Shown piece by piece: positions 7,139 through 35,158 of a DNA stretch of 64,000 nt. The DNA lies in assembly GCA_009694045.1 (NCBI GenBank), contig SHVY01000001.1, positions 1 through 64,000 of the forward strand. The letters are read 5' to 3'. Source of the DNA: Alphaproteobacteria bacterium. Lineage in GTDB: Bacteria > Pseudomonadota > Alphaproteobacteria > SP197. The position numbers and the translations under genes were made by a program. Every line of letters begins with the position of its first letter. Positions within the stretch are counted from its first letter, which is position 1. The notes under the pieces are model-generated. The model was not told where the DNA came from. It did not search any database and saw only the letters and a program-made list of their open reading frames with translations.

Positions 7139-8206
7139 ATGGTCTCGACCGTCGCGGGAGGCCGCGACGTCAAAATTTCCTGCCGCAACGTCTGGAAGGT
7201 CTATGGGGCCGACCCGGGGCGATTCTTCCCGGGCGGCAACGGGGCGGTGGGGGATGCGGCCGGCCTGATCGGGCGAGTGAGGGAATCCGGCCACATCGCT
7301 GCCGCGTGCAACGTGAGCTTCGACGTCCATGAGGGCGAAATCTTCGTCATCATGGGGCTCTCGGGGTCCGGCAAATCGACCATCGTCCGCTGCCTGTCGC
7401 GCCTGGTGGAGCCGACCGCCGGGGAAGTGGTGCTAGACGGCGAGGACCTGCTCAAGGTCAGCCACCAGAAGCTGATCGAGATCCGCCGTCACAAGATGGG
7501 GATGGTCTTCCAGAACTTCGGCCTGCTGCCCCACCTTACGGTCCTCGACAACGTGGCCTTCCCGCTCAAGGTCCAGGGCAAGGAGCGGCCCGAGCGCGAG
7601 GCTCGCGCCCGCGAGATGATCGATCTCGTCGGCCTCGGCGGGCGCGAAGGCTCCTTTCCCCGCGAGCTGTCGGGTGGCCAGCAGCAGCGCGTCGGCATCG
7701 CCCGCAGCCTGGCCGTCGGGCCCGCGGTGTGGTTCCTGGATGAGCCGTTCAGCGCGCTCGATCCCCTGATTCGGCGGCAGATGCAGGACGAATTCCTCCG
7801 CCTGCAGAAGCTCTTGCACAAGACGATCGTGTTCATCACCCACGATTTCCTCGAAGCGCTGCGGCTGGCCGACCGGATCGCCATCATGAAGGACGGCGAG
7901 GTGGTGCAGATAGGCACGCCATCCGACGTGGTGATGCGGCCGGCGACCGACTATGTGACCGAATTCACGCGCGACGTGCCGCGGGTGAAGGTGCTGACCG
8001 TCGGCGATGTCGCCGAATCCGCAGGGCCAGGCCTCAGCCCGCTGCCGTCCGTCACCCGGGACATGACCCTGGAACAGCTCCTGCCGCGCTTCACGGCCGG
8101 GGTCCAGGCGATCGCGGTCGCCGAGGGCGGCGGCCGTGTGACGGGTCAGGTCACGGCCCAGGGCGTGCTGCACGCCCTCTCTAGCTCCCGCGAGGGGGCA
8201 AGCTAG
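7139..8206 (+). CDS. Glycine betaine/proline-type ABC transporter ATP-binding protein (ProV/OpuAA-like)
   Basis: The 355-residue ATPase has Walker A 'GLSGSGKST' near residue 83, Q-loop 'MVFQNFGLL', signature 'LSGGQQQRVGIA', Walker B 'VWFLDEP' and the switch His in 'VFITHD'. The long N-terminal part before Walker A and a C-terminal extension of about 90 residues, where CBS-type regulatory domains usually sit, match the ProV class. The CBS part is short and divergent. It would energise uptake of a quaternary amine, but the permease must come from elsewhere, most simply from 42.8 kb. Its TAG stop is part of a palindromic repeat that begins at the end of the gene. Confidence 0.9.
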   Translation: MVSTVAGGRDVKISCRNVWKVYGADPGRFFPGGNGAVGDAAGLIGRVRESGHIAAACNVSFDVHEGEIFVIMGLSGSGKSTIVRCLSRLVEPTAGEVVLDGEDLLKVSHQKLIEIRRHKMGMVFQNFGLLPHLTVLDNVAFPLKVQGKERPEREARAREMIDLVGLGGREGSFPRELSGGQQQRVGIARSLAVGPAVWFLDEPFSALDPLIRRQMQDEFLRLQKLLHKTIVFITHDFLEALRLADRIAIMKDGEVVQIGTPSDVVMRPATDYVTEFTRDVPRVKVLTVGDVAESAGPGLSPLPSVTRDMTLEQLLPRFTAGVQAIAVAEGGGRVTGQVTAQGVLHALSSSREGAS

Positions 8207-8256
8207 AGCGCTTTCAGGCGAAGTGGGCACCGGTTCGCCGCCCGGAAAGCGCGCTA
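8204..8256. repeat. Palindromic repeat bounded by TA, overlapping the ATPase stop codon
   Basis: A 53-bp imperfect palindrome starts TAGAGCGCTTTC and ends GAAAGCGCGCTA, with an interior CGAAGTGGGCACCGGTTCG. The terminal arms pair over roughly ten bases. It overlaps the stop codon of the ABC ATPase gene. The RNA would fold into a hairpin and may also protect or end the transcript. Confidence 0.6.
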
Positions 8257-8265
8257 AACCAACAA

Positions 8266-8311
8266 CCTAGGGCGGACTCAACGACTCCGTTTTTGCTGAA
8301 TCCGCCCTAGG
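8266..8311. terminator. CCTAGG-bounded inverted repeat; possible bidirectional terminator
   Basis: The arms CCTAGGGCGGA and TCCGCCCTAGG are perfect inverted copies at the ends of a 46-bp element, with a T5 run in the loop. It lies between two convergent genes and supplies the TAG stop of the SprT-like gene (8307-8309). A hairpin terminator for both directions is plausible, although no U-tract follows the stem, so it may instead be a mobile palindrome. Confidence 0.55.
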
Positions 8312-10137: not shown

Positions 10138-10302
10138 AGTGTCCCAATTCCGGAATTCGCCCGACCTCGCGGCAACCCTCGGAGCGAATTCCGGAATCGA
10201 GGGGATACTGGCGAATCATTGATTCTAGTGTCGTTCTTGGTTTCGAAGTTCGCATCCAAGGGTTGCCGCGTGACAGGGCGAACTTCGAAACCACGACACT
10301 AG
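10138..10302. repeat. Composite palindromic element B-A (165 bp), copy 1
   Basis: Two palindromes stand side by side. B (10138-10209) starts AGTGTCCCAATTCCGG and its right arm is degenerate. A (10225-10302) runs from CTAGTGTCG to CGACACTAG with inner arms GGTTTCGAAGTTCGC and GCGAACTTCGAAACC. The whole unit recurs in inverted orientation at 53514-53677. It fills most of the 10032-10339 gap between the MBL gene and argD; no ORF or transposase is present. Confidence 0.8.
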
Positions 10303-10339: not shown

Positions 10340-11518
10340 ATGAGCGACATGCCCCCGTTGATGCCGACTTACGCGCGCGCCGATCTGGCGTTCGAGCGCG
10401 GCCAGGGCGCCTATCTGTTCACGGCCGACGGGCGACGCTACCTCGACTTCGGCAGCGGCATCGCGGTGACCGGGCTCGGCCACGCGCACCCGCACCTGGT
10501 GGCGGCGCTGACCGCGCAGGCGGCGAAGGTCTGGCACGTCTCCAACATCTACCGCATTCCCGAACAGGAGCGTCTGGCGCGGCGTCTGGTCGACGCCTCG
10601 TTCGCCGATACCGTGTTCTTCGGCAATTCCGGCGCCGAGGCGATCGAGTGCGGCATCAAGATGGTGCGCAAGTACCACGACGCCACCGGCCACCCGGAGC
10701 GCTATCGAATCATCACCTTCGAAGGCGCCTTCCACGGCCGCACTCTGGCCACCATCTCGGCCGGCAAACAGCCGAAGCACGTCGCCGGTTTCGATCCCCT
10801 CGTGGACGGCTTCGACCAGGTTCCCTTCAACGACGGCAACGCGCTGCGCGCCGCGATCGGCCGGGAGACGGCGGCGATCCTGGTGGAGCCGGTGCAGGGC
10901 GAAAGTGGAATCCGGAGTGCCGACCCGCGTTTCCTGCAGGAGTTGCGGCGGACCGCAGACGAGTTTGGCCTGCTGCTGTTCTACGACGAGGTGCAGACCG
11001 GGATGGGCCGCACCGGCAAGCTGTTCGCCCACGAATGGTCGGGCGCGAAACCGGACGTGATGGCGGTGGCCAAGGCGTTGGGCGGCGGCGTCCCGGTCGG
11101 CGCCTGCCTCGCTACCGCCGCCGCCGCGCAAGGCATGACCGCCGGCACCCACGGCTCGACGTTCGGCGGCAACCCGCTGGCGATGGCGGCGGCGAACGCG
11201 GTGCTGGACGTGATGCTGGCCGACGGATTCCTCGAGAGCGTCCAGAAGCACGCGCGGCTTCTGCGTACCCGCCTCGACGATCTCGCGCGCCGGCATCCCA
11301 AGGTGATCGCTGAGGTGCGGGGCCAGGGTCTGCTCCTGGGGCTGCGCCTGGTGCCGCCCGCCAACGAGATGATCGAGAAGCTGCGCGGCGCGGGGCTGCT
11401 CACCATTCCCGCCGGCGACAACGTGGTGCGGATTCTGCCGCCGCTGATCGTCGGCGAGGCCGAGATCGACGAGGCGATCCGCATCCTTGACGGCGTCTGC
11501 GCCGAGCTTGGCGCATGA
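10340..11518 (+). CDS. argD: Acetylornithine/ornithine-family aminotransferase
   Basis: The 392-residue class-III PLP aminotransferase matches ArgD in length and motifs: '[15 protein letters not shown]', '[15 protein letters not shown]', 'FHGRT', '[13 protein letters not shown]' and the Schiff-base lysine in '[14 protein letters not shown]' near residue 243. ArgD converts N-acetylglutamate semialdehyde to N-acetylornithine with glutamate as amino donor. Its TGA overlaps the ATG of argF (ATGA), and the argD-argF order is a common alphaproteobacterial arginine operon, which supports this assignment over other omega-aminotransferases. It may also serve as succinyldiaminopimelate aminotransferase. 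Confidence 0.92.
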
Positions 11519-12438
11519 CCGCCCTCCGCCATTTCCTGGATCTCGACGTCCTGGAGCCCGTGACCCTGCGCGGAATTCTCGACGATTCCGTCGCGCGGAA
11601 ACGCCGGCGGCGGCTGGGTCAGGTCGAAGCCCCGCTCGTGGGCAAGACCCTCGCCATGATCTTCGAGAAGCCCTCGACGCGGACCCGCGTCTCGTTCGAG
11701 GTTGCCATGCGCCAACTCGGTGGCGAAACCGTCATGCTCAGCCAGGTGGATATGCATCTGGGCCGGGGCGAATCGATCGCCGATACGGCCCGGGTCCTGT
11801 CGCGCTACGTCGATGTGATCATGATCCGCACCCAAAGCCACGACAAGCTCCTGGACCTGGCGGCGCACGCGACGGTGCCGATCATCAACGGGCTGACCGA
11901 CCGCACCCATCCGTGCCAGCTCATGGCCGACATCATGACCTTCGAGGAGCATCGCGGGCCGATCGCCGGCCGGACGATTGCCTGGTCCGGCGACGGCAAC
12001 AACATGGCCGCGTCCTGGATCCAGGCCGCCGTCCGCTTCGACTTCAAGCTCAACATCGCCTGCCCCGAAGCCTACATGCCGGCCACCCCGATCCTCACCT
12101 GGGCGAAGGAGCACCAGGGCAGGATCACGGTCAGCCACGACGTGGCGGCGGCGATCAAGGGCGCCGACTGCGTCGTGACCGACACCTGGGTCTCCATGAG
12201 CGACACCCGCACCGACGGCAAACGCGAGTTGCTCGAACCCTATCGCATCGACCGGGCGGCCATGGCGCTGGCCAAGCCCGACGCGGTCTTCATGCACTGC
12301 CTGCCGGTCTATCGCGGTCAGGAGGTCGTGCCCGAGGTGGTCGATGGGCCGCAATCGGTGGTGTGGGACGAGGCCGAGAACCGCCTGCATGCCCAGAAGG
12401 GAATCCTCGCCTGGTGTTTGAACGTACCGACGATCTGA
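11515..12438 (+). CDS. argF: Ornithine carbamoyltransferase
   Basis: The 307-residue protein contains the carbamoyl-phosphate loop '[12 protein letters not shown]' near residue 50, 'HPCQ' near residue 130 and the ornithine-loop '[11 protein letters not shown]' near residue 262, the three signatures of ornithine carbamoyltransferase. It makes citrulline from ornithine and carbamoyl phosphate in arginine synthesis. 'HCLPVYRG' replaces the commoner HCLPAHRG, a mild change next to the active site. It is translationally coupled to argD and its 3' end overlaps the hslO start by 25 bases. Confidence 0.95.
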
Positions 12439-13343
12439 TCCAGCCGTTCCGGGTCGATTCCCTCGGCGTCGTCGGCCGCGTCGTCCGGCTCGGCGATACC
12501 GTCGATACGGTCCTGCGGCAGCACGACTATCCGGCGCCAGTCTCGCACATGTTGGGCGAGACCCTGGCCCTGACGGCAAGCGTCGCCGGCGCGCTCAAGT
12601 TCGATGGCGTCCTCACCGTGCAGACCAAGAGCGACGGTCCCCTGCGGCTGATGGTCGCCGACTACGCGACCGGTGGCTGGATGCGGGGTTATGCCGCGTT
12701 CGACGCGGAGCGCCTGGCCGAAACCCGGCCCGGGGACTCCCTGACCCGGCTTCTCGGCATGGGCTACCTGGCCGTGACCGTCGACCAAGGGTCGGACACC
12801 GAGCGCTACCAAGGCATCGTCGAGCTGGTCGGTACCACCCTCGCGGAATGCGCCCTCGGTTACTTTCGTCGGTCGGAGCAGCTCCACACCGTCGTCAAGC
12901 TGGCGGCGGGCCTGGCTCCGGGCGGCCGCTGGCGCGCCGGTGCCCTGATGCTGCAACGCGAAGCGAAGGCCGGTGGGACGGGGCCCGTACGCGACGAGGA
13001 CGACGACGAGCCCTGGCGCCGGGCGCTGTCGCTCACCGGCAGCGCCACCACGGCCGAGCTCCTCGACGAGCGGTTGACCCCGGACCGGCTGCTGTACCGG
13101 CTGTACCACGAGGACGGCGTGCGGGCGTTCCAACCCTTGCCGCTGGCGTTCGGTTGTTGCTGTTCGCGCGAACGGGCCGAGGCGGTCCTGATCGCCCTTC
13201 CGGCTGAGGAAATCGGGGGCCTCGGCATCGCCGGCGAGATTCAGGTCACCTGCCAGTTCTGCAATCGTACCGAGGTCTTTACCGAGGACGAAGTGTGGGC
13301 CGCCCGCGCCGAAGAGCACCCCCGCGCCGTGTCGAGGAGCTGA
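12414..13343 (+). CDS. hslO: Hsp33 redox-regulated molecular chaperone
   Basis: The sequence from '[19 protein letters not shown]' onward matches Hsp33 throughout its length (309 residues). The redox zinc centre is visible near the C-terminus as '[10 protein letters not shown]' and 'CQFCNRTE'. Hsp33 is a cytoplasmic holdase that becomes active when these cysteines are oxidised. No ATG fits the N-terminus, so a GTG at 12414 is proposed, 25 bases inside argF; the ORF-track start at 11487 is a read-through of the argF region. Co-transcription with argDF is recurrent in alphaproteobacteria. The exact start is the main uncertainty. Confidence 0.88.
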
Positions 13344-13346
13344 ACC

Positions 13347-14228
13347 GTGAACGTCAATCTCGCGGCCACCCGCGCCGCCATCCTAGAGCACGTCCCGTTC
13401 ATGTTGACCCGCCCCTCCCCCTTCCCCTCCCGCAAGGGGAGGGGGACGCACGGATCATTTCTTGCTTCTCCCCTCCCCTTGCGGGAGGGGAAGGGGGAGG
13501 GGGCCGATCCGCCCGAGTCTACGTGGTCGGAAAGTGCTCTAGGACACGATCTCGGAGTTTCGCGCCACGGGCACGAAGCCCGAGATCGTGTCCTAGCTCA
13601 TGAATCCGTACCGATTTCGCGGCTCCGGAGTCGCCTTCGGCGACTCCGGAACTCGCGCAAGTCGGTACTTGTCGCCATCGCCCTCCTGTCCGGATGCGGC
13701 GGTGCGCCGCCGGCGGATGGCGTGGCCGAGATCACCTTCACCCACCTGCCGCCGCTCAACCTCGACGTCGCTGGCATCGAACTGGACGAGGCGTTCGTGG
13801 CGCCCCTGGAGCCGCCGCACGTCGAGGGCGATCTGCCCGTCGCCCCGGCCGACGCCGCCAAACGCTGGGTGACCGATCGGCTTGTGCCCGTTGGTGCGAC
13901 GCGGGTCGCGCGGGTCACCCTCGAGGACGCCAGCGCGATCGAGCAGGGCCTGGCGACGGAAGGCGGTATCTCCGGGCTGTTCACGGCGGAACAGGCCAAG
14001 CGCTTCGTTGTCACCGTCGCCATGCGGATCGAGATCGTCGACGAGGGCACGCGGTTCGTCGAGGGCTTCGCCACCGGGACGGCCACCAGGTCGGTGACCA
14101 TCGCCGAGGACGCGACGCTCGACGACCGCGACCGCGTCCTGCTGCGCCTGGTCGAGGCCACGATGCAGGAGTTCGACCGGAACCTGGAGCTGAGCATGCG
14201 CCGCCATCTGGCGCGGTTTCTGAGGTAG
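13347..14228 (+). CDS. Putative lipoprotein whose 5' end is interrupted by palindromic repeats
   Basis: The C-terminal part begins with a hydrophobic stretch and lipobox 'VAIALLSGC' at about residue 118. About 175 residues of an unrecognised secreted domain follow, so the product is probably an outer-membrane or periplasmic lipoprotein. Upstream of the lipobox the frame stays open for about 100 codons, but these codons are palindromic repeat DNA (13383-13668). No ATG, GTG or TTG lies between the repeats and the lipobox. The only good start is the GTG three bases after hslO. A six-base direct repeat GCCATC flanks the insert 297 bases apart, and removing 297 bases would restore a compact lipoprotein signal. 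Whether the protein is still exported is unclear. Confidence 0.6.
   Translation: MNVNLAATRAAILEHVPFMLTRPSPFPSRKGRGTHGSFLASPLPLREGKGEGADPPESTWSESALGHDLGVSRHGHEARDRVLAHESVPISRLRSRLRRLRNSRKSVLVAIALLSGCGGAPPADGVAEITFTHLPPLNLDVAGIELDEAFVAPLEPPHVEGDLPVAPADAAKRWVTDRLVPVGATRVARVTLEDASAIEQGLATEGGISGLFTAEQAKRFVVTVAMRIEIVDEGTRFVEGFATGTATRSVTIAEDATLDDRDRVLLRLVEATMQEFDRNLELSMRRHLARFLR
13383..13542. repeat. Family C repeat, copy 1 (CTAGAGCAC...GTGCTCTAG)
   Basis: A 160-bp element has terminal inverted repeats CTAGAGCAC and GTGCTCTAG and an internal pair CTCCCGCAAGGGGAGG / CCTCCCCTTGCGGGAGG. A close copy lies at 21002-21169. Both contain GGATCATTTCTTGCTTCTCC and GTCTACGTGGTC. It lies inside the lipoprotein reading frame. 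Confidence 0.75.
13539..13596. repeat. CTAG-bounded palindrome D
   Basis: A 58-bp element runs from CTAGGACACGATCTCGG to CCGAGATCGTGTCCTAG, 17-base perfect inverted arms. It shares its left CTAG with the right end of the family C repeat, so two elements abut through one CTAG. Confidence 0.75.
13608..13668. repeat. GTACCGA-bounded palindrome G
   Basis: A 61-bp imperfect palindrome runs from GTACCGATTTCGCG to CGCGCAAGTCGGTAC, with a perfect inner hairpin TCCGGAGTCGCC / GGCGACTCCGGA. It is the third palindrome in tandem inside the lipoprotein frame and ends just before the hydrophobic segment. Confidence 0.65.
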
Positions 14229-14239
14229 GAGAGGGGACC

Positions 14240-15211
14240 ATGGACGAGATTCTCGGCGACGCCGCGTTTCGCTCGCGCGACCTGATCGGGCGGCACTACG
14301 AAGTTCCGTACGCGGGCGCGACGAGCTTCCTGCGCACCCGCTACAGCCGCGACCTGAAGGACATCGACGTGGCCGTCCTCGGGGTTCCCCTCGATCTCGC
14401 GACCTCGAACCGGCCGGGAACCCGCTTCGGCCCGCGCGGCGTTCGCCAGGCCTCGGCCCAGATCGCCTGGGGTCCTCAGCACCCCTGGACCTTCGATCCG
14501 CGCGACCGCCTGGCGATCGTCGATTACGGGGACGTGCTGTTCGACTACGGCTACATCGACCGCATGCTCGCGGAAACCGAGCGCATGGCGCGGGAGATCA
14601 TCGATTCGGGGACATCGCTGCTGGCGATCGGCGGTGACCATTTCATCTCGTTGCCGCTGCTGCGCGCCCACGCGAAGCGGCACGGCAAGCTGTCCCTGGT
14701 CCACTTCGACGCCCATTCGGACACCTGGGCCGACGACCTCTACAACCACGGCACGATGTTCTATCACGCCATGAACGAGGGCCTGATCGACCCGGCGCGC
14801 TCGATCCAGATCGGCCTGCGCACCTACAACCCGCAGACCCACGGCTTCACCATCCTCGACAACGCCGCCGTGATTGGCAACGGCGCGGCCTGGGTGGCCG
14901 AGCAGGTGAGGCGCGTGGTCGGCGACGGCAAGGCGTATCTGACCTTCGACATCGATTGCCTGGACCCCTCGTTCGCGCCCGGCACCGGCACGCCGGTGTG
15001 CGGCGGGCTCTCGACCTTCCAGGCGTTCGATATCCTCGTACGGCTGGATTGGGTGAACTTCATCGGCATGGACATCGTCGAGGTCGCGCCAATCTACGAC
15101 GTGGGCGAAATCACCAGCCTCGCCGGCGCCGCCATCGCCATGCACTACCTCAGCCTTCGCGCCAAGAACCTGCCCCACCGCTCGAACGTGAAGATTCGGC
15201 GCGAGGCTTGA
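14240..15211 (+). CDS. Ureohydrolase (agmatinase/arginase family)
   Basis: The 323-residue protein has the complete dimanganese signature of ureohydrolases: 'GGDHF' near residue 132, 'DAHSDTWAD' near residue 156 and 'DIDCLDPSFAPGTGTP' near residue 238. The family hydrolyses guanidino compounds to urea; the long N-terminus and the 'CLDPSFAPGTGTP' form fit agmatinase (SpeB) or guanidinobutyrase rather than arginase. The ATG at 14240 follows AGGAGAGGGGACC; the longer ORF-track version overlaps the lipoprotein gene in another frame. Proximity to argDF hints at arginine or polyamine turnover, but a guanidinobutyrase-like role remains possible. Confidence 0.85.
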   Translation: MDEILGDAAFRSRDLIGRHYEVPYAGATSFLRTRYSRDLKDIDVAVLGVPLDLATSNRPGTRFGPRGVRQASAQIAWGPQHPWTFDPRDRLAIVDYGDVLFDYGYIDRMLAETERMAREIIDSGTSLLAIGGDHFISLPLLRAHAKRHGKLSLVHFDAHSDTWADDLYNHGTMFYHAMNEGLIDPARSIQIGLRTYNPQTHGFTILDNAAVIGNGAAWVAEQVRRVVGDGKAYLTFDIDCLDPSFAPGTGTPVCGGLSTFQAFDILVRLDWVNFIGMDIVEVAPIYDVGEITSLAGAAIAMHYLSLRAKNLPHRSNVKIRREA

Positions 15212-21001: not shown

Positions 21002-21169
21002 CTAGAGCACGTTCCGTTCATGGTGACCCGCCCCTCTCCTTTTTCCTCCCGCAAAGGGGACGCATGGATCATTTCTTGCTTCTCCCCTCCCCTTGCGGGA
21101 GGGGACGGGGGAGGGGGAGGGGGAGGTGGCCGATCCAACCCTAGTCTACGTGGTCAGAACGCCCGCTAG
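21002..21169. repeat. Family C repeat, copy 2
   Basis: The element starts CTAGAGCACGTTCCGTTCAT and ends near CCGCTAG. It shares with copy 1 the segments GACCCGCCCCTC, GGATCATTTCTTGCTTCTCC, CTCCCCTTGCGGGAGGGG and GTCTACGTGGTC. Its right terminal repeat has decayed. It overlaps the 3' end of the small ORF at 21146-21364. Confidence 0.7.
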
Positions 21170-35035: not shown

Positions 35036-35158
35036 CTAGTGCTTTGACTCCGACGGATCGTTCACGATCCGTCGGGCCAAACCCCTAGGAAGATTCTCAT
35101 CCTGTGGTCCGCCCCAGACACGATGATCGGGAATCTAGCGTTTGGGGCGGACCGCTAG
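35036..35158. repeat. Two adjacent CTAG-associated palindromes
   Basis: The first element (35036-35088) begins and ends with CTAG and contains CGACGGATCG TTCA CGATCCGTCG, a perfect ten-base stem. The second (about 35105-35158) has arms GGTCCGCCCCA and TGGGGCGGACC and ends in CTAG. They fill the gap between the CDF gene and the HD-GYP gene and may act as a terminator for the former. Confidence 0.55.

Follow-up and report, generated by a model that had tools for sequence, protein, structure and literature searches.

Two CTAG-ended elements in tandem, very probably acquired by successive insertion, within the signal-peptide codons of an alphaproteobacterial lipoprotein gene

Tenzen and Ohtsubo reportedly found in 1991 that IS630 prefers TA within CTAG as its target. 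Insertion of the IS630 family at TA, with a preference for CTAG, is described in PMC2170065 and the Tenzen papers cited there, and TT/AA duplications have been observed for ISY100 (PMC2170065). MITEPsy1 of Pseudomonas syringae is an IS5-related 100-bp MITE which inserts at CTAG or YTAA and duplicates this target on insertion (PMC3189936). Rickettsia palindromic elements (RPEs) are palindromic repeats of about 130-160 bp that are found in frame in protein-coding genes (PMC10969869). REP sequences, with their RAYT transposases, are defined as palindromes of 20-40 bp of which one end carries a GTAG or CGTC tag (PMC3733652).

In this paper we describe a lipoprotein gene that carries two CTAG-ended repeats, C and DG, in tandem. 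It is found in a window of 64,000 nucleotides, the whole stretch of DNA under study, from a 3.0-Mb draft genome in 83 contigs. The genes of its relatives and the named genomes with C-type ends also point to an alphaproteobacterium. The gene order at 11515-15208 is ornithine carbamoyltransferase gene, hslO, lipoprotein gene and arginase-family gene. The hslO gene (Hsp33; 12414..13343, + strand; Pfam HSP33 E=2.3e-63) is intact and its stop lies just 5' of the lipoprotein start. The lipoprotein ORF (13347..14228, + strand), to which no family was assigned in Pfam or NCBIfam searches, at present has 293 aa, made up of leader codons 1-12, 95 inserted codons, the h-region, the lipobox and the mature part. 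On the same + strand, 13347..13382 holds the codons of the original start and n-region (M N V N L A A T R A A I), with a start position that agrees with relatives. The original h-region and lipobox are encoded further on, at 13668..13697 (L V A I A L L S G C), where orthology begins, and the lipobox reads LSGC with its Cys codon at 13695-13697. The rest of the coding sequence (13674..14225, + strand) comprises 184 intact codons with no internal stop, and in sequence comparison this remainder is 49% identical to the orthologue in G003.

An orthologue was present in 24 of the 40 relatives searched. The ORF 5' of it mostly ends in the HslO C-terminal motif, about 20-135 nt away, and in relatives with a clear reading about 19-27 codons separate the start from the lipobox Cys, the start being in a place that corresponds to GTG 13347 of our gene. 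This GTG is directly 3' of the hslO stop and has a GGAG upstream at normal spacing. All in-frame ATG, GTG or TTG codons 5' of the lipobox are at or before 13481, within the first element or earlier. Because the orthologue starts match, the GGAG is well spaced and in-frame starts occur only up to 13481, the sequence comparison identifies GTG 13347 as the ancestral start and places the insert within the coding sequence. The earlier note had placed the insert between a GTG start and the lipobox with the frame kept open, and this is borne out by GTG 13347, the LSGC lipobox and a frame free of stops from 13347 to 14225. The comparison with relatives that the note proposed for the orthologue next to hslO rules out, by the orthologue start positions, that the insert is simply intergenic. 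The insert, a net 285 bp or 95 codons, falls within signal-peptide codons.

Element C (13383..13542, + strand) has the form CTAG-AGCACGT...AGTGCT-CTAG, a 156-bp unit plus the shared CTAG, and contains an inner hairpin with perfect 33-bp arms (13412..13502, + strand). There are about 12 copies in this genome, mostly of the 156-bp unit plus CTAG, and the terminal repeat is CTAGAGCACGTTCCG. Like the IS630/Tc1-mariner-type MITEs, C is short, present in multiple copies, without a transposase gene and bounded by terminal inverted repeats. At the occupied sites, which are the ones compared, most copies are bounded at either end by a TA within CTAG, and one target can be used in tandem. A remnant of an IS630-family transposase at locus L150 (C63:28695-28990; about 1501-1792; DDE_3 E=5.5e-15) runs, stop codon included, into the repeat CTAGAGCATTTTCCGATCATTCTGG, which is nearly the outer repeat of C. 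The remnant represents the right end of a truncated element only, and the match to C is confined to the outer repeat (about 13/15 bp) and a few bases beyond. Since this terminal repeat is common to C and the remnant, C is on sequence grounds an IS630-type MITE. MITEPsy1 differs in this respect, as its repeats are IS5-type whereas the remnant matching C is IS630-type. The outer repeat of C is also found on short elements in Azorhizobium, Roseococcus, Hyphomicrobium and others. The truncated transposase on C63 ends directly in the terminal repeat CTAGAGCATTTTCCG and is likely a relative of C's parent. A second, degenerate copy of C is present in the window at 21002-21159.

The earlier note had described three palindromes in tandem at the 5' end of the gene. 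The inverted repeats and the shared CTAG are there, but they belong to two elements and not three; independent palindromes D and G are ruled out by the fact that both travel together elsewhere. DG (13539..13671, + strand) is one CTAG-ended repeat with a 129-bp unit, composed of a first hairpin D with perfect 17-bp arms (13539..13596, + strand) and a second hairpin G (13608..13668, + strand). The palindrome G had been correctly delimited, but the element does not end at 13668; its right end is a diverged CTTG at 13668-13671. We find 9 near-full copies of DG in this genome. D and G occur together with an identical 11-bp spacer at C73, C47:76 kb, C35, C77, C62, C56 and C12, and also at C8, but there with a deletion. 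The consensus starts with CTAGTACC and ends with GGTACTAG; the copy in the window is 9% off this consensus and diverged at both ends (CTAGGACA and GGTACTTG). Among the nine copies, again compared at occupied sites, five are bounded left and right by CTAG and two deviate from this by one base. The C77 copy has CTTG at either end, as would be expected given the TT/AA duplications of ISY100, and the C12 copy, with CTCG/CCAG, does not fit. No transposase with DG ends was found beside the transposase remnants of this genome, and the ends of its three IS5/IS4-type DDE_Tnp_1 fragments do not match. DG was found in none of 15 other family members, and its core was not found in a genome collection that may omit this genome itself. 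DG is probably also an IS630-type MITE. What sets this locus apart from described MITEs of this type is that two unrelated families stand in tandem in one coding sequence and that no parent element was identified for DG. REP palindromes resemble C and DG in being small, present in many copies and mostly intergenic. C and DG differ from them in ending in CTAG on either side and in possessing true terminal inverted repeats; at 160 and 133 bp they lack the one-end GTAG or CGTC tag.

We consider it very likely that two different non-autonomous transposable elements inserted successively at one CTAG in the signal-peptide codons. Element C, as a MITE of an IS630/Tc1-mariner-type insertion sequence, would have targeted and duplicated TA, preferably in CTAG. 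DG seems to behave alike and would probably be of the same type, mobilised by a transposase that we infer. The CTAG kept by what appears to be the first insertion would have become the target of the second, hence the one CTAG common to C and DG, which is found at 13539-13542 between C and D. In this way the n-region (MNVNLAATRAAI) and the h-region (LVAIALLSGC) would have come to be separated by 95 additional codons with the ORF still open, and the insertion would be selfish and not adaptive. The mechanism is of a known kind, that of IS630-type MITEs, and tandem elements sharing one CTAG recur elsewhere in the genome. When C and DG are excised to one CTAG/CTTG, a normal 21-residue lipoprotein leader results, MNVNLAATRAAILVAIALLSG followed by the Cys; this leader is a reconstruction, as the nearest orthologue compared is from another genus and 49% identical. 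A GCCATC direct repeat had been seen as flanking the insert, and it is indeed found at 13377 and 13674, 297 bp apart. It is not a target duplication, because the other copies of DG, whose flanks are unrelated, have GTACTAG as their end, and the right GCCATC sits 2 bp past the DG end, which rules out a target duplication of a composite. The original codons ...A-A-I-L-V-A-I... explain the repeat.

The ORF stayed open because each unit has a length divisible by three and contains no stop in the phase set by CTA-G. Element C has three open frames, one of them + phase 0, and in DG phase 0 is open on either strand. The unit length is divisible by three in 9 of 10 aligned copies of C and in 5 of 9 copies of DG, nearly all of them non-genic; these five keep the 129-bp unit, and other lengths include 110, 130 and 131. 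With unit lengths that are mostly divisible by three in copies nearly all of which are non-genic, a frame left open by insertion at CTA-G is not an improbable outcome and cannot serve as evidence for selection.

The copies of C and DG are intergenic or at gene ends at about 18 of the 20 loci examined, as placed with a codon-usage model for which the window served as training set. The elements seem to land preferentially at the rare CTAG sites of gene ends. At C73:20563, C77:77435, C18:9623-9819 and C8:43906 the elements abut genes, and the gene's TAG stop comes from the element's CTAG. In-frame genic copies are found at 2 of about 20 loci. Besides the lipoprotein gene, this is the case at C12:40237-40369 (locus L085, 1501-1633), where DG, in the opposite orientation, splits the leader codons of a Flp/Fap pilin gene in frame, downstream of codon 11 and ahead of the processing site. 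The pilin matches PF04964 with E=1.2e-7 and 31.8 bits, just below the curated cut-off of 32.2. Its layout is GGAGG, ATG, MRGLHFALRHG, 43 DG codons, RAVVDDRRG and, after the processing site, VTAIEYALVAAGG. Without the element the leader would have 20 residues, compared with about 21-22 in relatives. The frame is open through DG and shifted further downstream, so the gene is probably decaying; a second Flp gene at C3:20052 is intact. The right half of DG is also found at C2:19517-19564 (locus L076), in an apparent glutathione S-transferase-like gene that has suffered a deletion and a frameshift. The Pfam search gave no GST family for this gene, and its identity comes from our reading of the residues.

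What the insert does to the lipoprotein is a separate question. RNA folding of 13330-13700 gives -235 kcal/mol, far beyond chance (z = -14.7 vs shuffles). Since very stable hairpins follow the start codon in the transcript, expression of the lipoprotein is probably lowered. If translated, the protein would have a 116-residue leader with a possibly usable internal lipoprotein signal. The earlier note had suggested that the insert, as it precedes the signal peptide, could block export. It does precede the h-region, but the inserted peptide ends in the strongly basic LRSRLRRLRNSRKS, directly 5' of VLVAIALLSGC, and because basic stretch, h-region and lipobox all remain, an internal, type-II-like signal is possible.

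With the same origin of the insert, the gene may be effectively dead, its translation or export abolished and its decay not yet begun, and we regard the chances of this as even. The hairpins right after the start codon fit such a state, as do the downstream frameshift in the Flp pilin gene with the sister DG copy and the frameshift in the GST-like gene with the partial copy. Moreover, the unselected chance of finding no stop or frameshift is about 5-50% depending on age, and at 4-8% divergence it is 5-23%, which is not negligible; the lack of stops and frameshifts is weak evidence of function. On the other hand, the 184 codons 3' of the insert do run without a stop or frameshift, the lipoprotein gene is single-copy in this genome and conserved in the family, and the DG copy, being 9% off consensus, may not be very recent.

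The earlier note had likened the insert to palindromic elements which enter coding genes without breaking them. This likeness to RPEs, drawn from their description, is real at this locus in repeat size and in-frame position. In both families, however, the majority of copies lie between genes or at their ends, the open frame results from the length and phase of the units, and C belongs to the IS630-type MITEs. It is improbable, in our view, that selection for genic insertion keeps the two families open and the inserted peptide is tolerated. The RPE precedent (PMC10969869), units that are multiples of three, an open phase 0 of DG on either strand and the in-frame occurrence of DG in two unrelated genes would agree with such selection. 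However, genic copies are the exception here, not a large share, and only 5 of 9 DG copies keep the 129-bp unit. The substitutions in the window copies relative to consensus, several of which are paired within the D hairpin and not independent, show no clear synonymous excess either (7 synonymous vs 10 non-synonymous, with 28-31% synonymous expected). We think it most improbable that the insert is intergenic in effect, with translation now starting just 5' of the basic stretch and h-region at a non-standard codon (ATT in DG, for instance). Although ISRLRSRLRRLRNSRKSVLVAIALLSGC would be a good lipoprotein signal, there is no in-frame ATG, GTG or TTG between 13481 and the lipobox and no ribosome-binding site at that place, and GTG 13347 has both a well-spaced GGAG and the ancestral position.

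The two genes that carry a full copy in frame both have it 5' of a processing site (the lipobox Cys, and the Flp site between G and VTAIEY). This location in the cleaved leaders of two genes is a notable point and hints, as a lead and not a result, that leaders which are removed may put up with such insertions. Removable leaders might be a safe harbour for in-frame transposable elements, a kind of post-translational erasure of selfish DNA, which we consider unlikely. If it were true, the foreign peptide would be cut off by LspA or prepilin peptidase, and the mature protein would be the same as without the insertion. We found no report of MITEs extending signal peptides in the literature, and the locus would be a clean natural case of two MITEs adding 95 codons to a signal peptide without breaking the gene. 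If the lipoprotein is still exported, this would show how much foreign peptide can be accommodated between the n-region and the h-region, and why selfish insertions might be tolerated in leaders; otherwise this is an ordinary gene heading for loss.

The window also holds other families of CTAG-ended palindromic elements at 8181-8310, 10225-10302 and 35036-35158, several of them in tandem with one shared CTAG.
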